Shown here one piece after another: positions 2,356 through 62,615 of a stretch of DNA of 64,000 nt (the first letter of the stretch is position 1; each line of letters opens with the position of its first letter). The position numbers and the translations under genes were made by a program. The DNA is from Companilactobacillus alimentarius DSM 20249 (lineage in GTDB: Bacteria; Bacillota; Bacilli; Lactobacillales; Lactobacillaceae): positions 1,736,001 through 1,800,000 of the forward strand of contig NZ_CP018867.1 of the NCBI RefSeq assembly GCF_002849895.1. Direction: 5' to 3'. The notes under the pieces are model-generated. The model was not told where the DNA came from, did not search any database, and saw only the letters and a program-made list of their open reading frames with translations.

Positions 2356-3492
2356 ATGAAATTTTCTATTGATCGATCAAAATTCATAAATCAAACAAGT
2401 AACGTTCAACGAGCTATTTCCACGAAAACAACTATTCCAATTTTGACAGGAATGAAACTAGACCTTTCAGAAAGTGGTCTAACTATAACTGGAAGTAATT
2501 CAGATATTTCCATTACTTCATTCATTTCAAAAGATGATTCTGAAAATGATTTAAAAATCGAAACAACTGGATCAATTGTTTTACCAGCTCGTTTCTTTAA
2601 CGAAATCATTAAAAAATTACCTGGCGATAATTTTGAACTTGAAGTTTTAGAAAATAATCAGACATTAATTAAATCTGGCGTTTCTGAATTTACAATTAAT
2701 GGACTAGACGCTGTTAATTATCCACATCTACCAGAAGTTGAAACGGACAACCAACTAGTTTTACCAACTGATGTTTTCAAAGAAGTCGTTAATCAAACAG
2801 TAATTGCTGTTTCCACTCAAGAAAGTCGTCCAGTCCTAACTGGTGTTAACTTCTTGATTACCAAGGAAGGTCTAACGGCGGTTGCAACTGACAGCCATCG
2901 TCTTTCTCAAAGAAGAATCAACATCACTAGCGATGAAGACTACAATTTGATTATTCCTGGAAAAAGTTTGACAGAACTAGTCAGAACTATCAGTGATAGT
3001 GTCAAAGAAATTTCGATGTCAATTTCCGAAAACCAAGTGCTTTTCAGTTTTGACAATATTATGTTCTATTCCAGATTACTTGACGGACGCTATCCTGAAA
3101 CTGATCGCCTAATTCCTGAAGAATCAAGTACACGTTTAACCTTTGACTCTTCAAAATTACTTGCTTCAGTTGAACGTGCCTCACTTCTTTCTCATGAGAG
3201 TAGAAATAATGTTATCAAATTAGAAATTAAAGCTGTTGATAAAAAAGCCACACTTTATGGAAATTCTCCAGAAGTCGGAACAGTTGAAGAAGTCCTTGAT
3301 TTTGACAATCTTGAAGGCGATGACTTGGAAATTTCTTTCAACCCAGATTACTTAAAAGATGCATTGCGTTCATTTGGCAGCAACACAACTATTGAAATGA
3401 GTTTCACTTCACCGCTGCATCCATTCACACTCAGACCGGTTGATGACCGCGATAATTTTGTTCAATTGATTACACCAGTTCGAACATTTTAA
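2356..3492 (+). CDS. dnaN: DNA polymerase III beta sliding clamp
   Basis: A 378-residue protein of normal clamp length, beginning MKFSIDRSKF and ending with the family C terminus RDNFVQLITPVRTF. It forms the ring-shaped dimer that tethers DNA polymerase III to the template and serves as a platform for other replication and repair proteins. The ATG at 2356 follows an AAAAGGGAG site. It lies immediately after the unwinding region in the usual dnaA-dnaN order and is closed by a hairpin terminator at 3506-3541. A perfect DnaA box (2718-2726) falls inside the coding region. Confidence 0.97.
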   Translation: MKFSIDRSKFINQTSNVQRAISTKTTIPILTGMKLDLSESGLTITGSNSDISITSFISKDDSENDLKIETTGSIVLPARFFNEIIKKLPGDNFELEVLENNQTLIKSGVSEFTINGLDAVNYPHLPEVETDNQLVLPTDVFKEVVNQTVIAVSTQESRPVLTGVNFLITKEGLTAVATDSHRLSQRRINITSDEDYNLIIPGKSLTELVRTISDSVKEISMSISENQVLFSFDNIMFYSRLLDGRYPETDRLIPEESSTRLTFDSSKLLASVERASLLSHESRNNVIKLEIKAVDKKATLYGNSPEVGTVEEVLDFDNLEGDDLEISFNPDYLKDALRSFGSNTTIEMSFTSPLHPFTLRPVDDRDNFVQLITPVRTF

Positions 3493-54790: not shown

Positions 54791-55438
54791 ATGGAAAAAT
54801 TAATTGAGCAAGCTAAGTCTCTAATTAAACCCCAGATGAGCGTTAGTTTTGGTGGTGGAAGAACGGTCGGGCGATTGATTAAAGCCGTTAAAGGATTGGA
54901 TATAAAGGTTTCAAGTCCTTCAGAGATGACACGTCAACTTTGTTTGGAATTGAATATTCCAGTAGTACCATTAGAACAAGTAAAAAAATTTGATTTAGCA
55001 TTCGATGGTTGCGATAGTATTGATTCTAATTTGAATGTTTTAAAGAGTAATGGTGGAATTCATACTTTGGAAAAATTGTATGGTAATTTAGCTGATCGTT
55101 ATATTATTTTAGCTCCAGAATCTCGTCAAACTGAAGAATTAGATGCAAAAATACCATTGTGCTTAGAAGTTTTAGATTTGGCGATACCACAAGTAGTCAA
55201 TGAAGTAGAAAAACTAAATGGTCAAATTAAAATTCGCCAATCCAGTGACATAGCTGGAATGGTTAGAACCGTAAATGGCAATAGTTTAGTAGACTGTTAT
55301 TTTGATAACTGGCAAAATATCGCTGAAATAAATGATAAATTAACAAAAATGACAGGTGTATTAGGAACATCTTATTTTGAAATTGTGACGGATGCATTTT
55401 TGGCTACAGATGATGATGTGATTCATTTGCAAAAATAG
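54791..55438 (+). CDS. rpiA: Divergent ribose-5-phosphate isomerase A-like protein
   Basis: A 215-residue member of the RpiA fold, which interconverts ribose 5-phosphate and ribulose 5-phosphate. It is diverged: the phosphate loop is FGGGRTVG in place of the usual GTGST, and GADEID is replaced by DGCDSID. The catalytic-region Lys (LKSNGG) and Glu (TLEKL) are retained. It could be a functional isomerase or a paralogue with another sugar-phosphate substrate. A GGAGAG site precedes the ATG. It is a single gene with its own terminator. Confidence 0.65.
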   Translation: MEKLIEQAKSLIKPQMSVSFGGGRTVGRLIKAVKGLDIKVSSPSEMTRQLCLELNIPVVPLEQVKKFDLAFDGCDSIDSNLNVLKSNGGIHTLEKLYGNLADRYIILAPESRQTEELDAKIPLCLEVLDLAIPQVVNEVEKLNGQIKIRQSSDIAGMVRTVNGNSLVDCYFDNWQNIAEINDKLTKMTGVLGTSYFEIVTDAFLATDDDVIHLQK

Positions 55439-58178: not shown

Positions 58179-58691
58179 TTATTTCTTCGCAGTTAGACGA
58201 CGATAAAGCTCACGACCGACGATATCGTTTGTCCACATCCAGGCGATGTGACCGAGAGCTTCGGAAATATGTTCTTCACTAGGCTGGTCTTTGGGATTTG
58301 GAACAGTCTTCATCATTGGCATAATACCGATATGGAAGGCAACCCAGATGGCAAGACCGAAAATAGCGCCGGAACCTTTTCTGAGAAATGGTTTGTATTC
58401 AGAAAGAACTTCATAAATAACAGCAAATGAAGTGGAGAAACCAAAGTGCATTAGAAAACTAGCCCAAGGCATTTTTTGTTCCGAATAGGTATAAGTACCA
58501 CGAGTAATCTTCTTAGGAATACCGAATTGTTCCATTAAAGTCTGTGGAGGATTTACGGCATCACGTTCTGGAGTACGGGGAGGCAAAACATTTTCCCAAC
58601 CTAATTTGACGAATCCTGAAATAACTCCTGCAGCTGTACCAGCAATGATTGCTGCTTTTAAATCTACTTTTTGTGCTTTATTCAAATGCAT
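58179..58691 (-). CDS. YagU-family (DUF1440) inner-membrane protein
   Basis: A 170-residue protein with about three transmembrane helices (about 12-28, 75-95, 102-122). AAIIAGTAAGVISGFVKLGWE and NPPQTLMEQFG match the YagU/DUF1440 family, linked to acid tolerance in enteric bacteria. It precedes the GPH transporter. The start at 58691 follows AAGAGGTATT. Confidence 0.8.
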   Translation of the reverse strand: MHLNKAQKVDLKAAIIAGTAAGVISGFVKLGWENVLPPRTPERDAVNPPQTLMEQFGIPKKITRGTYTYSEQKMPWASFLMHFGFSTSFAVIYEVLSEYKPFLRKGSGAIFGLAIWVAFHIGIMPMMKTVPNPKDQPSEEHISEALGHIAWMWTNDIVGRELYRRLTAKK

Positions 58692-58839
58692 AAATAATAC
58701 CTCTTTTCGATTATTAAAACCCTAATTGTAAGTATAAATCAGAGTGGATACTAATTCAGGTAATTGGTCTTGTCATTGGTAACAGAAAGTAATTGTAAAC
58801 TATCTACTAACGTTACAGTCAATGAGAAAAGGTACTTTA

Positions 58840-59272
58840 GTCATAATTTCTTCACATATTTTTATTAATTAATTCGTAATTTGGAAACCATATGTTCATA
58901 AATTCCCGTTATTATTTAAGCATAGTCAAATAACAAAGAGGTGACCGGATGAAGAAATAATCTCCCAGATAACTTTTCCTTGAAATTATACTTATTGAAA
59001 ATAAAATGAATAGAATTAATTCCCTTAAATAAATTTAACCCTTAACTTAAATAATATATCTCCCCCCAAAGATATATATAAATGAATAAAATTTTGAAAG
59101 AAGTGACCTGATGAAACTGGATAATTGCTTGTAATTGGAAAGAAAATTTTTGAATTACTCACTTAACGAATAGAACAAACCCTTAATATATAAAACCCTA
59201 TTTTTTAAAAGTTTAATCCCCTTAAACATAAATATAACTTTTATCTCCCCCCTAAAAGATATAAAGTTAAAA
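58840..59272 (+). ncRNA. Candidate RNA unit 1: C-rich-loop hairpin block left of the GTPase gene
   Basis: This long gap has no credible gene. Block A (58895-58964) is about 85% identical to 61392-61460 and contains AAGAGGTGACCGGATG followed by a three-codon ORF. Two hairpins with C-only loops follow: ATATATCT-CCCCCCAA-AGATATAT (59054-59077) and AACTTTTATCT-CCCCCC (59236-59268). Each is preceded by a TTTAA(T)CCC(C)TTAA box. The block ends at a terminator whose loop is CTCCCCA. C-rich loops could pair with ribosome binding sites, as in known Firmicutes sRNAs. Transcription is inferred. Confidence 0.45.
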
Positions 59273-59316
59273 AAATAAAATAACAACCAATTCCTCCCCA
59301 GAATTGGCTGTTATTT
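59273..59316. terminator. Bidirectional terminator with C-rich loop
   Basis: A 16-bp stem (AAATAACA.CCAATTC and its complement) encloses CTCCCCA, with T-runs on both sides. It serves the GTPase gene leftward and the candidate RNA rightward. Confidence 0.82.
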
Positions 59317-59320
59317 TGCG

Positions 59321-61264
59321 TTAATGATAAGTATATGGTAAATGAGCAGCGTCTGGTACTTGATCCCAAGCAACTGGATAACCGGCACCGTGAGCACAAA
59401 AGACTGAATCAGGAGTATTTTCTAAGTCGGAAACGGGATGATAGTCACGATCAATGATAATCTCTTCTTCGTTATGACAAGGACGGAATTTATCGACAAT
59501 GACCTCAAGGTGTCCTTGACCATGAGTATAAGCTGTAACTTCCTTGGAATAACCCTGCATTTCTGAAACAGGGGCGAACCCAGTCAAAACTGCCAATTGA
59601 GTATTGTCAGTCAGAACATCAGGATCGTTAAAGGTACCGTGCATCTTTTGGATGTCATTCATGGCTCGACCAACTTGATCTTGAGTGATTTCTAATCGGA
59701 ATTGGTACCAAGGTTCCAATAATTGACAGGCATCTTGTTTCTTTAACATCATCAGACCTTGTCTAACAGCTCGCCAGGTAGCTTCTCGAAAATCACCACC
59801 GACAGAGTGGACGTTATTAGCTTTGCCATTGATCAAAGTGATTTTCATATCAGTGATCGGTGCACCTATTAAGACTCCCAAGTGTTCTTTAGCTTTAAGG
59901 TTAGTGAGGACTTGGTGTTGCCAATTGCGAGCGAGCACATCTAAATTACAGTGTGAATCGAGACTTAAACCATGATTTGGATTAGGTTCTAGTAACAAAT
60001 GGACTTCTGCATAGTGACGTAGTGGCTCAAAATGACCGACGCCTTCGACTTTTTTAGTAATCGTTTCTTTATAAAGGATACTGCCTTCATCAAAATTAAT
60101 ATCCAAGTCGAATCTGTCTAACAATATTTGTTGTAAAATTTCCAGTTGGACTTCACCCATGATTTGAACACGGATCTCTTGAAGATGATTGGACCAAGCA
60201 ACGTGCAATTGAGGGTCTTCATCTTCCAATTGTCTCAAGGCAGTTAGGCAAGTGTGAAGGTCGTTGTCTTTAGGATTGACCGTGTAATTTAAGACGGGTT
60301 GAATAGTAGGTTGCTGAGAATTAGTTTGTTTTCCCAAACCTAAGCCTGGATAAGTTTTATCTAAACCGGTAATTGCGCAGACGAATCCGGCAGGGACTTC
60401 TTGAGTAGTCTCAAATTTAGCACCGTTGTAGACACGTACTTGATTGGCCTTTTGCTCGTTGAAGAGGACGGCTTTATTATGTAAGGTTCCACCAGTAACT
60501 TTGACCCAAGTCAGACGTTCAGCTTTTTCATCATGAGAAATTTTAAAAACTTTAGCTCCAAATTCATTAGAGTACTTAGTTTCTTGAGTCCAATTTTCAA
60601 AACCATTTAGAAATTCATCAATTCCAGAAAGTTTTAAAGCCGATCCAAAGAAGCAAGGAAAAACTTGACGTTGTTTGATCATATTTTGAATAATATCTGA
60701 GGAGATAGAACCTGTCTCCAAGAAATTATTGAGAATATCATCATCTTGAAGAGCTATCTCTTCAAGCGTTTCTTCCGAAAGTTTATCGTTAGGAGCATTA
60801 AAGGCAATACAGCCCTTAGATAAATTCTTTTGTAAATTGACGAGTGTTTTCTTTTGTTCGACGCCAATTGAATCCATTTTGTTTACAAAAATAAAAGTTG
60901 GTATTTGATATCGTTGTAAAAGATTCCAAAGAGTTCTGGTATAGCCTTGAACACCATCGGTAGCGGAGACTACTAAAATAGCGTAATCCAAAACGCTGAG
61001 AACTTGTTCGGTTTGGGAAGCAAAATCGACGTGTCCAGGAGTATCAAGTAAAGTTAATTGTAAATTATCATACTTTAAATTAGCTTGATGAGAGAAAATT
61101 GTAATGCCACGCTTCTTTTCCAGGTCATCAGAATCTAAGAATGCATTGCCATTGTCGACTCGTCCTAGTTTTCGTAATTGTCCGGCTTTGTATAAAAGAG
61201 CTTCGGAAAGCGTTGTTTTACCGGCATCAACGTGTGCAACGATTCCCGCTACAATATGTTTCAT
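59321..61264 (-). CDS. TetM/TetP-like ribosomal-protection-type translation GTPase
   Basis: A 647-residue EF-G-like GTPase. G1 AHVDAGKTT (10-18), G2-region RGITI, G3 DTPGHVDF (74-81) and G4 NKMD (128-131) are intact; EF-G domains II-V follow. Length and the N-terminal MKHIVAGIVAHVDAGKTTLSEA style fit the tetracycline ribosomal-protection class (Tet(M)/TetB(P)), but it diverges from mobile tet genes and has no mobile context, so resistance is not certain. A GAGAGGAG site precedes the ATG. It is flanked by two paralogous non-coding blocks. Confidence 0.82.
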   Translation of the reverse strand: MKHIVAGIVAHVDAGKTTLSEALLYKAGQLRKLGRVDNGNAFLDSDDLEKKRGITIFSHQANLKYDNLQLTLLDTPGHVDFASQTEQVLSVLDYAILVVSATDGVQGYTRTLWNLLQRYQIPTFIFVNKMDSIGVEQKKTLVNLQKNLSKGCIAFNAPNDKLSEETLEEIALQDDDILNNFLETGSISSDIIQNMIKQRQVFPCFFGSALKLSGIDEFLNGFENWTQETKYSNEFGAKVFKISHDEKAERLTWVKVTGGTLHNKAVLFNEQKANQVRVYNGAKFETTQEVPAGFVCAITGLDKTYPGLGLGKQTNSQQPTIQPVLNYTVNPKDNDLHTCLTALRQLEDEDPQLHVAWSNHLQEIRVQIMGEVQLEILQQILLDRFDLDINFDEGSILYKETITKKVEGVGHFEPLRHYAEVHLLLEPNPNHGLSLDSHCNLDVLARNWQHQVLTNLKAKEHLGVLIGAPITDMKITLINGKANNVHSVGGDFREATWRAVRQGLMMLKKQDACQLLEPWYQFRLEITQDQVGRAMNDIQKMHGTFNDPDVLTDNTQLAVLTGFAPVSEMQGYSKEVTAYTHGQGHLEVIVDKFRPCHNEEEIIIDRDYHPVSDLENTPDSVFCAHGAGYPVAWDQVPDAAHLPYTYH

Positions 61265-61332
61265 AAAATATTTTCTCCTCTCAAACGGAACTTAATAACT
61301 ATTTTACTATTACTAAAAAAGAAATTGTTTAG

Positions 61333-61612
61333 AGTCATCGAATTTTCTTCACAATTAATTATTATTTATTTCGCACTTTGCTAATTATATATTCATAAAT
61401 TCTGGTTATTATTTAAGCATAGTCAATGAAGAAGAGGTGACCGGATGTATAGATAATCTCTAAGAGAGAAAAAATTAATTACTTAAAATAATGAAAAATA
61501 AACTTAATAAATAATCCTTTTAAATTTAATCCCCCTTAATAAAATATATCTCCTCCCCAAAGATATAGAATTTTAAATAGAAAGAAGTAAACATTATGAA
61601 AAATAATATGAC
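61333..61612 (+). ncRNA. Candidate RNA unit 2: paralogous block right of the GTPase gene
   Basis: Block A copy 2 (61392-61460) matches 58895-58964, with homology reaching upstream to a CTTCACA segment near 61347. AAGAGGTGACCGGATG is conserved, but the tiny ORF differs (ATG TAT AGA TAA). A TTTAATCCCCCTTAA box and an ATATATCT-CCTCCCCAA-AGATAT hairpin (61544-61566) follow, then AAAGAAGTAAAC as in unit 1 and a terminator at 61613. The sequence conserves the hairpins and boxes and not any peptide. Confidence 0.45.
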
Positions 61613-61648
61613 AAAAAGAGCTCGCCAATCGGCAAGCTCTTTTCTTTT
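61613..61648. terminator. Bidirectional terminator
   Basis: AAAAGAGCT.GCC / GGC.AGCTCTTTT around AATC, between the candidate RNA unit 2 and oppF. Confidence 0.88.
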
Positions 61649-61682
61649 GCAACTTTTATTTTAGGATTTGATTTGTCAGATA

Positions 61683-62615
61683 TTATTTTCCAGCTTTTAA
61701 TTTGGCTGCTTGTTCATCGTTACAGTAAAGGAAGTGTCCGGGAAATACTTCCTGAAGTCTTTGGTCATCCAAGAAAGGACGTTTGTGGTCAAAGTCGATT
61801 CTGGTTCTTTGCTTTTCAATCTCAGGGTCTGGGACTGGAATAGCGGAAAGAAGACTCTGTGTGTAAGGATGTAACGGGTGATTATAAATCTCATCAGAAG
61901 CAGCTAATTCAACGATTTTACCGCGATACATAACGGCGATACGGTCTGAAATGTATTTAACCATGGAAAGATCATGGGCGATAAAGAGATAAGTTAAGCC
62001 TTGCTTCTTTTGAATGTCTTGCATTAAATTAACAACTTGAGCTTGGATAGAAACATCCAAAGCGGAAATTGGTTCATCAGCGATGATGAATTGAGGATCA
62101 ACGGCTAGAGCACGGGCAATCCCGATACGCTGTCTTTGACCACCAGAGAACTCATAAGGGTAACGTGTCATGTGTTCTGGATTTAAGTTAACCATGTCGA
62201 GTAATTCACGAATTCGTTGATCACGTTCTTGGTCGTTTTTGACTAAGTGGTGCACGTCAAGTCCTTCAGCAATGATATCCTTGACCTTCATTCTAGGATT
62301 CAAAGAAGCATAGGGGTCTTGGAAGATCATTTGCATTTCACGACGGAATTCTTTCATCTTTGGACCATGACTCTTGATTTTACTGATGTCTTGACCATTG
62401 AAATAGATGTGACCATCAGTAGGATTGTAGAGCCTGATGATTGAACGTCCAGTCGTACTCTTACCAGAACCGGATTCACCAACTAATCCAAAAGTTTCAC
62501 CTTTATAAATATCGAAGGAGACATCATCAACGGCTTTAACCATGTTAGGTTTACCAATGTTAAAATATTGTTTTAAATTTTTTACGGATACGATTACTTG
62601 TTTTTCATCTGCCAT
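61683..62615 (-). CDS. oppF: Oligopeptide ABC transporter ATPase OppF
   Basis: A 310-residue ATPase that powers peptide uptake with OppD. Walker A GESGSGKST, Q-loop QDPYASLNPRM, signature FSGGQRQRIGIARAL, Walker B IIADEPISALD and the H-loop HDLSMVKYI are all present. The C-terminal LYCNDEQAAKLKAGK tail follows the usual YxC segment of OppF. It overlaps oppD by one base (TAATG). Peptide import is inferred from the family; the cytoplasmic face of the membrane is its site of action. Confidence 0.93.
   Translation of the reverse strand: MADEKQVIVSVKNLKQYFNIGKPNMVKAVDDVSFDIYKGETFGLVGESGSGKSTTGRSIIRLYNPTDGHIYFNGQDISKIKSHGPKMKEFRREMQMIFQDPYASLNPRMKVKDIIAEGLDVHHLVKNDQERDQRIRELLDMVNLNPEHMTRYPYEFSGGQRQRIGIARALAVDPQFIIADEPISALDVSIQAQVVNLMQDIQKKQGLTYLFIAHDLSMVKYISDRIAVMYRGKIVELAASDEIYNHPLHPYTQSLLSAIPVPDPEIEKQRTRIDFDHKRPFLDDQRLQEVFPGHFLYCNDEQAAKLKAGK

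Follow-up and report, generated by a model that had tools for sequence, protein, structure and literature searches.

Few trans-acting small RNAs (sRNAs) of lactobacilli are, to our knowledge, proven. LisR in Listeria and CiaR in streptococci control htrA, and we know of no C-rich sRNA set in the CssRS regulon. Among the closest described systems, the LhrC RNAs of Listeria (LhrC1–5) are multicopy, LisRK-dependent and G-poor, with CUCCC motifs in a loop, a single strand and the terminator loop, and these sites bind the lapB mRNA at G-rich sequence ahead of its start codon (PMC4132741). The csRNAs of Streptococcus are several similar sRNAs controlled by one response regulator of the CiaRH system, with direct repeats just upstream of the −10 element; they have complementarity to the Shine–Dalgarno (SD) sequence and AUG, and pairing with the SD is thought to occur (PMC3091779). 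In Bacillus subtilis, CssR activates htrA and has the canonical box TTTTCACA (PMC6749698). Here we describe two plus-strand blocks in a 64,000-nucleotide (nt) stretch (the window) of the 2.40 Mb genome of Companilactobacillus alimentarius DSM 20249. They are probably paralogous genes for predicted regulatory sRNAs of an htrA-linked regulon, which would act by blocking ribosome binding sites.

The best explanation is that these RNAs would work like LhrC or the csRNAs, and membership in either group is not claimed. With LhrC they share multiple copies, a promoter of two-component type, a scarcity of G and CUCCC-type motifs, which lie in hairpin loops and the terminator loop (CTCCCCA) of the left RNA and in a hairpin loop only of the right RNA. 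Compared with LhrC, the RNAs of the window are longer, and they have more C loops, a strong 5' SD and no Rfam match. A second LhrC paper (PMC5880928) offered no LisR box for comparison. Like the csRNA genes, they come as several similar copies with direct repeats just upstream of the −10, but the search made in PMC3091779 has the CiaR repeats as NTTAAG-N5-TTTAAG, 10 from the −10, whereas here TTCNNA half-sites stand in 11-bp phase, 9 bp from it. The csRNA-type arrangement was not encountered upstream of the −10, the consensus of 88 copies consisting of TTCNNA half-sites, and control by CiaR was rejected, as the promoters of the RNAs have no TTTAAG repeats. The likeness to CssRS lies in htrA activation and in its box, which resembles the half-site TTCACA (PMC6749698); the regulators themselves were not compared. 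A 520-nt long non-coding RNA of L. salivarius is likewise a long lactobacillus RNA, but it is set apart by its description as species-specific and megaplasmid-borne with a predicted three-branched fold, and the main text of PMC5643018 never uses the term C-rich. Judged by sequence, the window RNAs have the general marks of C-rich sRNAs, namely C-rich loops and a terminator-bounded transcript. The family is new and its kind is known: multicopy C-rich sRNAs with a two-component-type promoter. At the gathering score, Rfam finds only rRNAs in the window and only a tRNA in 17 loci; at a low threshold (up to E 5) it gives 10 matches, all below gathering, the best of which (E 0.037) falls on the right terminator. 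Literature searches on such lactobacillus sRNAs, which did not reach most subscription papers, listed no description.

Aligned with one gap, the two blocks (58895-58964 and 61392-61460) are identical in 61 of 70 columns (87%), and a pattern of the 5' region with one variable gap matched this genome twice, both times in the window (reversed control, 0). The original prediction of a sibling sRNA pair, with boxes, C-loop hairpins and a terminator behind each block, is supported by the parts found. The left sRNA is predicted at 58922-59317 (about 396 nt, its start being assumed 7 nt after the −10). It contains a TTTAACCCTTAA box (59034-59045), C-loop hairpin 1 (59054-59077), a GTTTAATCCCCTTAAAC box with a C loop on a 6-bp stem (59211-59227, box start 59212), C-loop hairpin 2 (59236-59268) and a terminator hairpin with the loop CTCCCCA (59277-59317). 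In the right sRNA, predicted at 61419-61648 (about 230 nt), a TTTAATCCCCCTTAA box (61520-61539, box start 61525) and a C-loop hairpin whose loop contains CTCCTCCCC (61545-61567) are followed by a terminator hairpin (61614-61643) that is convergent with oppF. A terminator scan gives the left hairpin a score on either strand, the higher one on the minus strand, where its T tail is clean, so the gene between the RNAs, which lies on that strand, probably uses it too. The right terminator, whose stem has a mismatch, did not appear in the list from the same terminator scan. The left transcript folds better than its shuffles (z −2.83; 0 of 100 as good).

The DNA of the right unit has matches in 34 of the 36 genus genomes. 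R1, a model of the promoter and 5' block built from sequence alone, matched all 36 at E ≤ 0.01, although some of these matches are other genes preceded by this promoter. Iterated nhmmer, run on the window together with 40 loci of 33 more genomes (without G006 and G021), gave 88 copies in 34 genomes. Their place is fixed across the genus: a copy lies at most 800 bp from the DUF1440 gene (58179-58691 in the window, by Pfam) or oppF in the window and in 32 of 33 relatives, G019 being the exception, and between these two genes on a single locus in the window and 24 of the 33. A third set of copies lies between an NlpC/P60 gene and the gene at 54791-55438, with another gene sometimes inserted, and the genes that separate copies vary by species. 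The original prediction had noted that the RNA-like units flank a gene for a TetM-like GTPase (59321-61264, minus strand; 412 bits against tet_protect, cut-off 775). A link between the two is unsupported because, in the loci read, the GTPase lies between copies in only 5 of 34 genomes (the window, L134, L142, L143 and L147), a count in which copies of some genomes are on separate or cut contigs. The GTPase looks incidental to the RNA pair and is not counted as part of the system. The interval 58691-61683, like the same place in relatives, has species-specific gene content and resembles an insertion hot spot.

No promoter had been identified with confidence in the original prediction. We now propose candidate activator-type promoters on the plus strand at 58848-58915 (TTCACA at 58851, TTCGTA at 58873, TTCATA at 58895-58900 and the −10 TATTAT at 58910-58915) and at 61345-61412 (TTCACA at 61348, TTCGCA at 61370, TTCATA at 61392-61397 and TATTAT at 61407-61412), although a plain sigma-70 scan gave nothing at either, and the 11 sites that it lists in the region do not exceed the 11.2 of shuffles. 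The alignment of all 88 copies (A1) has the consensus TTCTTCACA, TTCGTA, TTCATA, then TATTAT, then AAGCATAGTCAA. The half-sites keep their 11-bp phase and the last ends 9 bp upstream of TATTAT, and both the TTCNNA of this last half-site and CATAG are invariant (88/88 copies). Tandem half-sites of this type are usual for OmpR-family activators.

The same promoter layout stands before htrA, which is present in 36/36 genus genomes. One match of a relaxed half-site pattern in the C. alimentarius genome lies upstream of a 467-amino-acid gene with Trypsin_2 and PDZ_2 domains, which is htrA. The stricter TTCAYA-N5-TTCAYA-N9-TANNNT was found upstream of htrA at 20 of the 30 htrA loci examined (at L252 and L255 some 340-480 bp ahead of the htrA protein match); judged by eye, 9 of the remaining 10 have a near form of it, in most cases with TTCAAA for the second half-site, and the L270 locus was printed out of register. 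Across the 36 genus genomes this pattern has 65 matches, in 28 genomes, against 4 in the control, and a 22-bp-spaced form, which is modelled on the RNA promoters and matches those too, has 49 against 3. In 201 genomes of the family the TTCAYA pattern gave 191 matches against 12 in the reversed control. The 191 are distributed over 100 genomes, and 25 of the 40 genera are represented; if the nine genomes of the genus itself are taken out, the figures are 177 and 11, in 94 of 192. We classified 54 pattern loci (30 in the genus and 24 outside it) as 32 RNAs (terminator-bounded, with no open reading frame (ORF) of at least 80 amino acids), 17 protein genes and 5 that were neither. The 32 RNAs have 99 runs of at least three C against 8 of at least three G. 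Random positions in the same loci were RNA-like in 134/1080 cases (12%), with 184 C runs against 144 G runs, and AT-rich TANNNT positions, some of which lie inside the RNAs, in 109/486 (22%), with 240 against 70. The 24 outside-genus loci comprise 15 RNAs from four genera (a single RNA of genus g38 accounts for seven), together with 6 proteins and 3 that are neither; by eye, similar RNAs at L197-L202 extend the set to genera g33, g20 and g8.

Among the 17 protein loci, htrA is the commonest gene (12/17), with nine cases in the genus assigned by coordinates (L277, L283, L288, L289, L292, L295, L297, L298 and L301) and three outside it by Pfam (L336, L340 and L359); at another, L293, the ORF may have arisen by chance within an RNA. 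This bears on the possibility that the promoter is of the PhoP type and that the RNAs respond to phosphate limitation. Such a promoter would have the same 11-bp phase, and TTTACA repeats so phased occur at one of the two pstS promoter regions of this genome (L223), likely a PhoP site distinct from the TTCNNA sites. With TTC in front of the RNAs and htrA but TTT in the pstS region, and with htrA rather prominent behind the pattern, PhoP was set aside as the regulator and we regard a phosphate response as improbable. A common OmpR-family regulator, also the activator of htrA, is the explanation we prefer. None of the ten OmpR-type regulators of C. alimentarius could be assigned to the promoter: NCBIfam, run on nine of the ten, placed one over its cut-off, as YycF, and one looks CiaR-like.

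The RNAs are A/U-rich and poor in G. A first finder gave a terminator in 72 of the 88 transcripts (both window copies were missed); in these the median length is 278 nt and the bases are 42% A, 30% U, 17% C and 11% G, values that include some transcripts run past the first terminator (up to 901 nt). A laxer finder gave a terminator in 78 of the 88 copies, a few of them doubtful. Runs of at least four C number 3.46 per RNA in the 72 transcripts, against 0.21 after shuffling, and there are no runs of at least four G. Around 266 such C runs, stems of at least 6 bp were found in 54.9% (8.4% with shuffled flanks) and stems of at least 8 bp in 27.1% (1.0%), so the C runs lie in hairpin loops beyond chance. 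In a sister hairpin with an invariant TATTCCCCGTA, which is absent from the window copies, 6 of 9 pairs changed on both sides, in 31 cells, and the covariation score was 0.450 against 0.178, with 0/500 shuffles as high for either the score or the 31 cells; the alignment (A2) has 19 sequences (18 distinct) out of 26 hairpins, 7 of other shape being omitted and several rows being bulged. The changes in the sister hairpin are compensatory; the hairpins of the window's own classes are kept mainly by identity. The compensatory changes bear on a further explanation, that the blocks are a functionless repetitive element or a decayed repeat. The element is multicopy and the intervening genes vary by species, but there are only two copies in the genome under study, a copy occupies the same place in 33/34 genomes, promoter bases are invariant and stem changes are compensated, and we give this explanation almost no credence compared with a pair of functional RNA genes.

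Both window RNAs have the strong SD GAGGTGA followed by a 3-codon ORF, encoding MKK on the left (58938-58960) and MYR on the right (61434-61456), and the left RNA has a second SD (GAAAGAAGTGACC) with a 7-codon ORF at 59096-59134. A 5' SD is present in 82/88 copies, as exact GAGGTGA in 77, and an ATG follows it in 73. The peptides have 2-22 amino acids and no common sequence, which indicates that the SD is kept and not the peptide; that stems persist at the C runs while the tiny peptides diverge agrees with the original prediction. One alternative is that the blocks are a family of short-peptide genes or leader attenuators. SD and ATG are there in most copies, and one related unit, L183, encodes a peptide of 33 amino acids with relatives in L185, L186, L187 and L190, but the first peptides share no sequence, the ATG is missing in some copies, a terminator ends 78/88 and the downstream gene is often on the opposite strand, all of which makes this quite unlikely. 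A 5'-stabilizing SD is known from Bacillus mRNAs, and such a function is the simplest reading of the kept SD in the predicted sRNAs.

Another possibility is that ribosomes, and not chiefly mRNAs, are what the RNAs act on. The start-stop mini-ORF at the strong 5' SD and, in the class of the right RNA, a stop-less 3' mini-ORF would then load and trap ribosomes, with recourse to trans-translation. The right window copy has a 3' SD at 61580-61587 and a mini-ORF from 61596 (MKNNMTKRARQSASSF...) that runs without a stop into the terminator (61580-61649). This class has 19 distinct sequences, two of which the script left unmeasured. In the others the ATG and the terminator hairpin are 22, 25, 28 or 31 nt apart, 1 mod 3 in 17/17, while the distance from C run to SD occurs in all three phases (8, 8, 3). 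The constant frame favours an effect on ribosomes, as does the finding of an SD in 82 copies when 32/73 first peptides have at most 3 codons. However, the 17 sequences are related and so are not 17 events, the script found no ATG after the SD in 9/82 copies and no SD in 6/88, a 3' mini-ORF suspected in the third class was rejected as its ATG is not conserved, and by eye the left class has no such stop-less 3' ORF. We consider this unlikely as the main role, although less so than a peptide gene or attenuator.

The mechanism we propose for mRNA-directed sRNAs begins with an OmpR-family response regulator, also the activator of htrA, that would bind the TTCNNA half-sites and switch the RNAs on, probably under envelope or secretion stress. 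The A/U-rich, G-poor RNA may then expose several C-rich loops on weak, mostly A-U stems, and these loops would initiate pairing with the G-rich SD sequences of target mRNAs and block their translation. The conserved 5' SD probably loads a 30S subunit or ribosome that would shield the unstructured 5' end, and the tiny peptide itself would be of hardly any importance. Pairing with SD sequences had been put forward in the original prediction, and the target prediction now run leaves it a conjecture: the mean best duplex was −13.5 kcal/mol at 46 start regions, −11.4 with shuffled loops and −9.3 at 138 internal windows, a weak difference in a biased set.

Several results weigh against this proposal. 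The target set includes spurious ORFs in rRNA, and its starts were picked by SD strength. Folding of the right transcript is at the level of its shuffles (z −1.12; 23/200 as good). In A2, pair types were not above shuffles (493/500 as high) and pairs with changes on both sides were barely more numerous than in shuffles (79/500 as high); moreover, neither window copy is in the alignment, which combines hairpins from two positions. The window's own hairpin classes (A3 and A4) are kept mainly by sequence identity, with stems that hardly vary and a register that MAFFT lets slip. With the relaxed half-site pattern the genome has 28 matches against 20 in the reversed control, so there is no clear excess. 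No clear TTCNNA array was seen in the 260 nt upstream of the ten OmpR-type regulator genes, of which at least one upstream stretch is inside an operon. Nor are the 24 outside-genus loci independent of each other, as they come from 7 genera only and include one RNA seven times.

A wider proposal, which we make tentatively and with rather little confidence, is that of a Lactobacillaceae-wide stress regulon, linked to HtrA, with C-rich sRNAs as most of its output. The longest class in this genus would engage ribosomes: its RNAs would have a 5' ribosome-loading site besides several C loops that block SDs, and one class would add the conserved stop-less 3' mini-ORF. If true, lactobacilli would gain a conserved, testable stress regulon of htrA and many C-rich sRNAs under one promoter type. 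Its wiring would be LisR- or CiaR-like with different DNA boxes, the regulator making HtrA and silencing chosen mRNAs through C-rich loops. C-rich RNAs of this sort in several lactobacillus genera point to a possible shared stress response.

R1 matched 36 of 301 genomes of the family at E ≤ 0.001. Of the 36, 21 lie outside the genus, mostly with weak matches; the best outside match (L195, E 6e-14) was rejected as a family member, being a promoter block beside a contig end followed by unrelated sequence. In g38, seven genomes (L351-L357) carry a near-identical RNA of about 150 nt, with hairpins containing ACTCCCCCAAAGT and CAATCCCCCATATTG, and L351, the only one of these tested, has no Rfam match. 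Two genes of other genera behind the same pattern, L342 (257 amino acids) and L350 (250 amino acids), have no Pfam match at 1e-5. Elsewhere in the C. alimentarius genome the same half-sites precede other short RNAs that are rich in C and bounded by a terminator, at L205 (1519485), L222 (1520982), L208 (178671) and L305 (2116257). In the L183 unit (2967-3068, minus strand; G000:C1:1256966-1257067), the same promoter and leader precede the small ORF (MRKHPILVLTGVSVLATFCTKMIRNYNAKRFLN), and another mini-ORF after it extends into a terminator.

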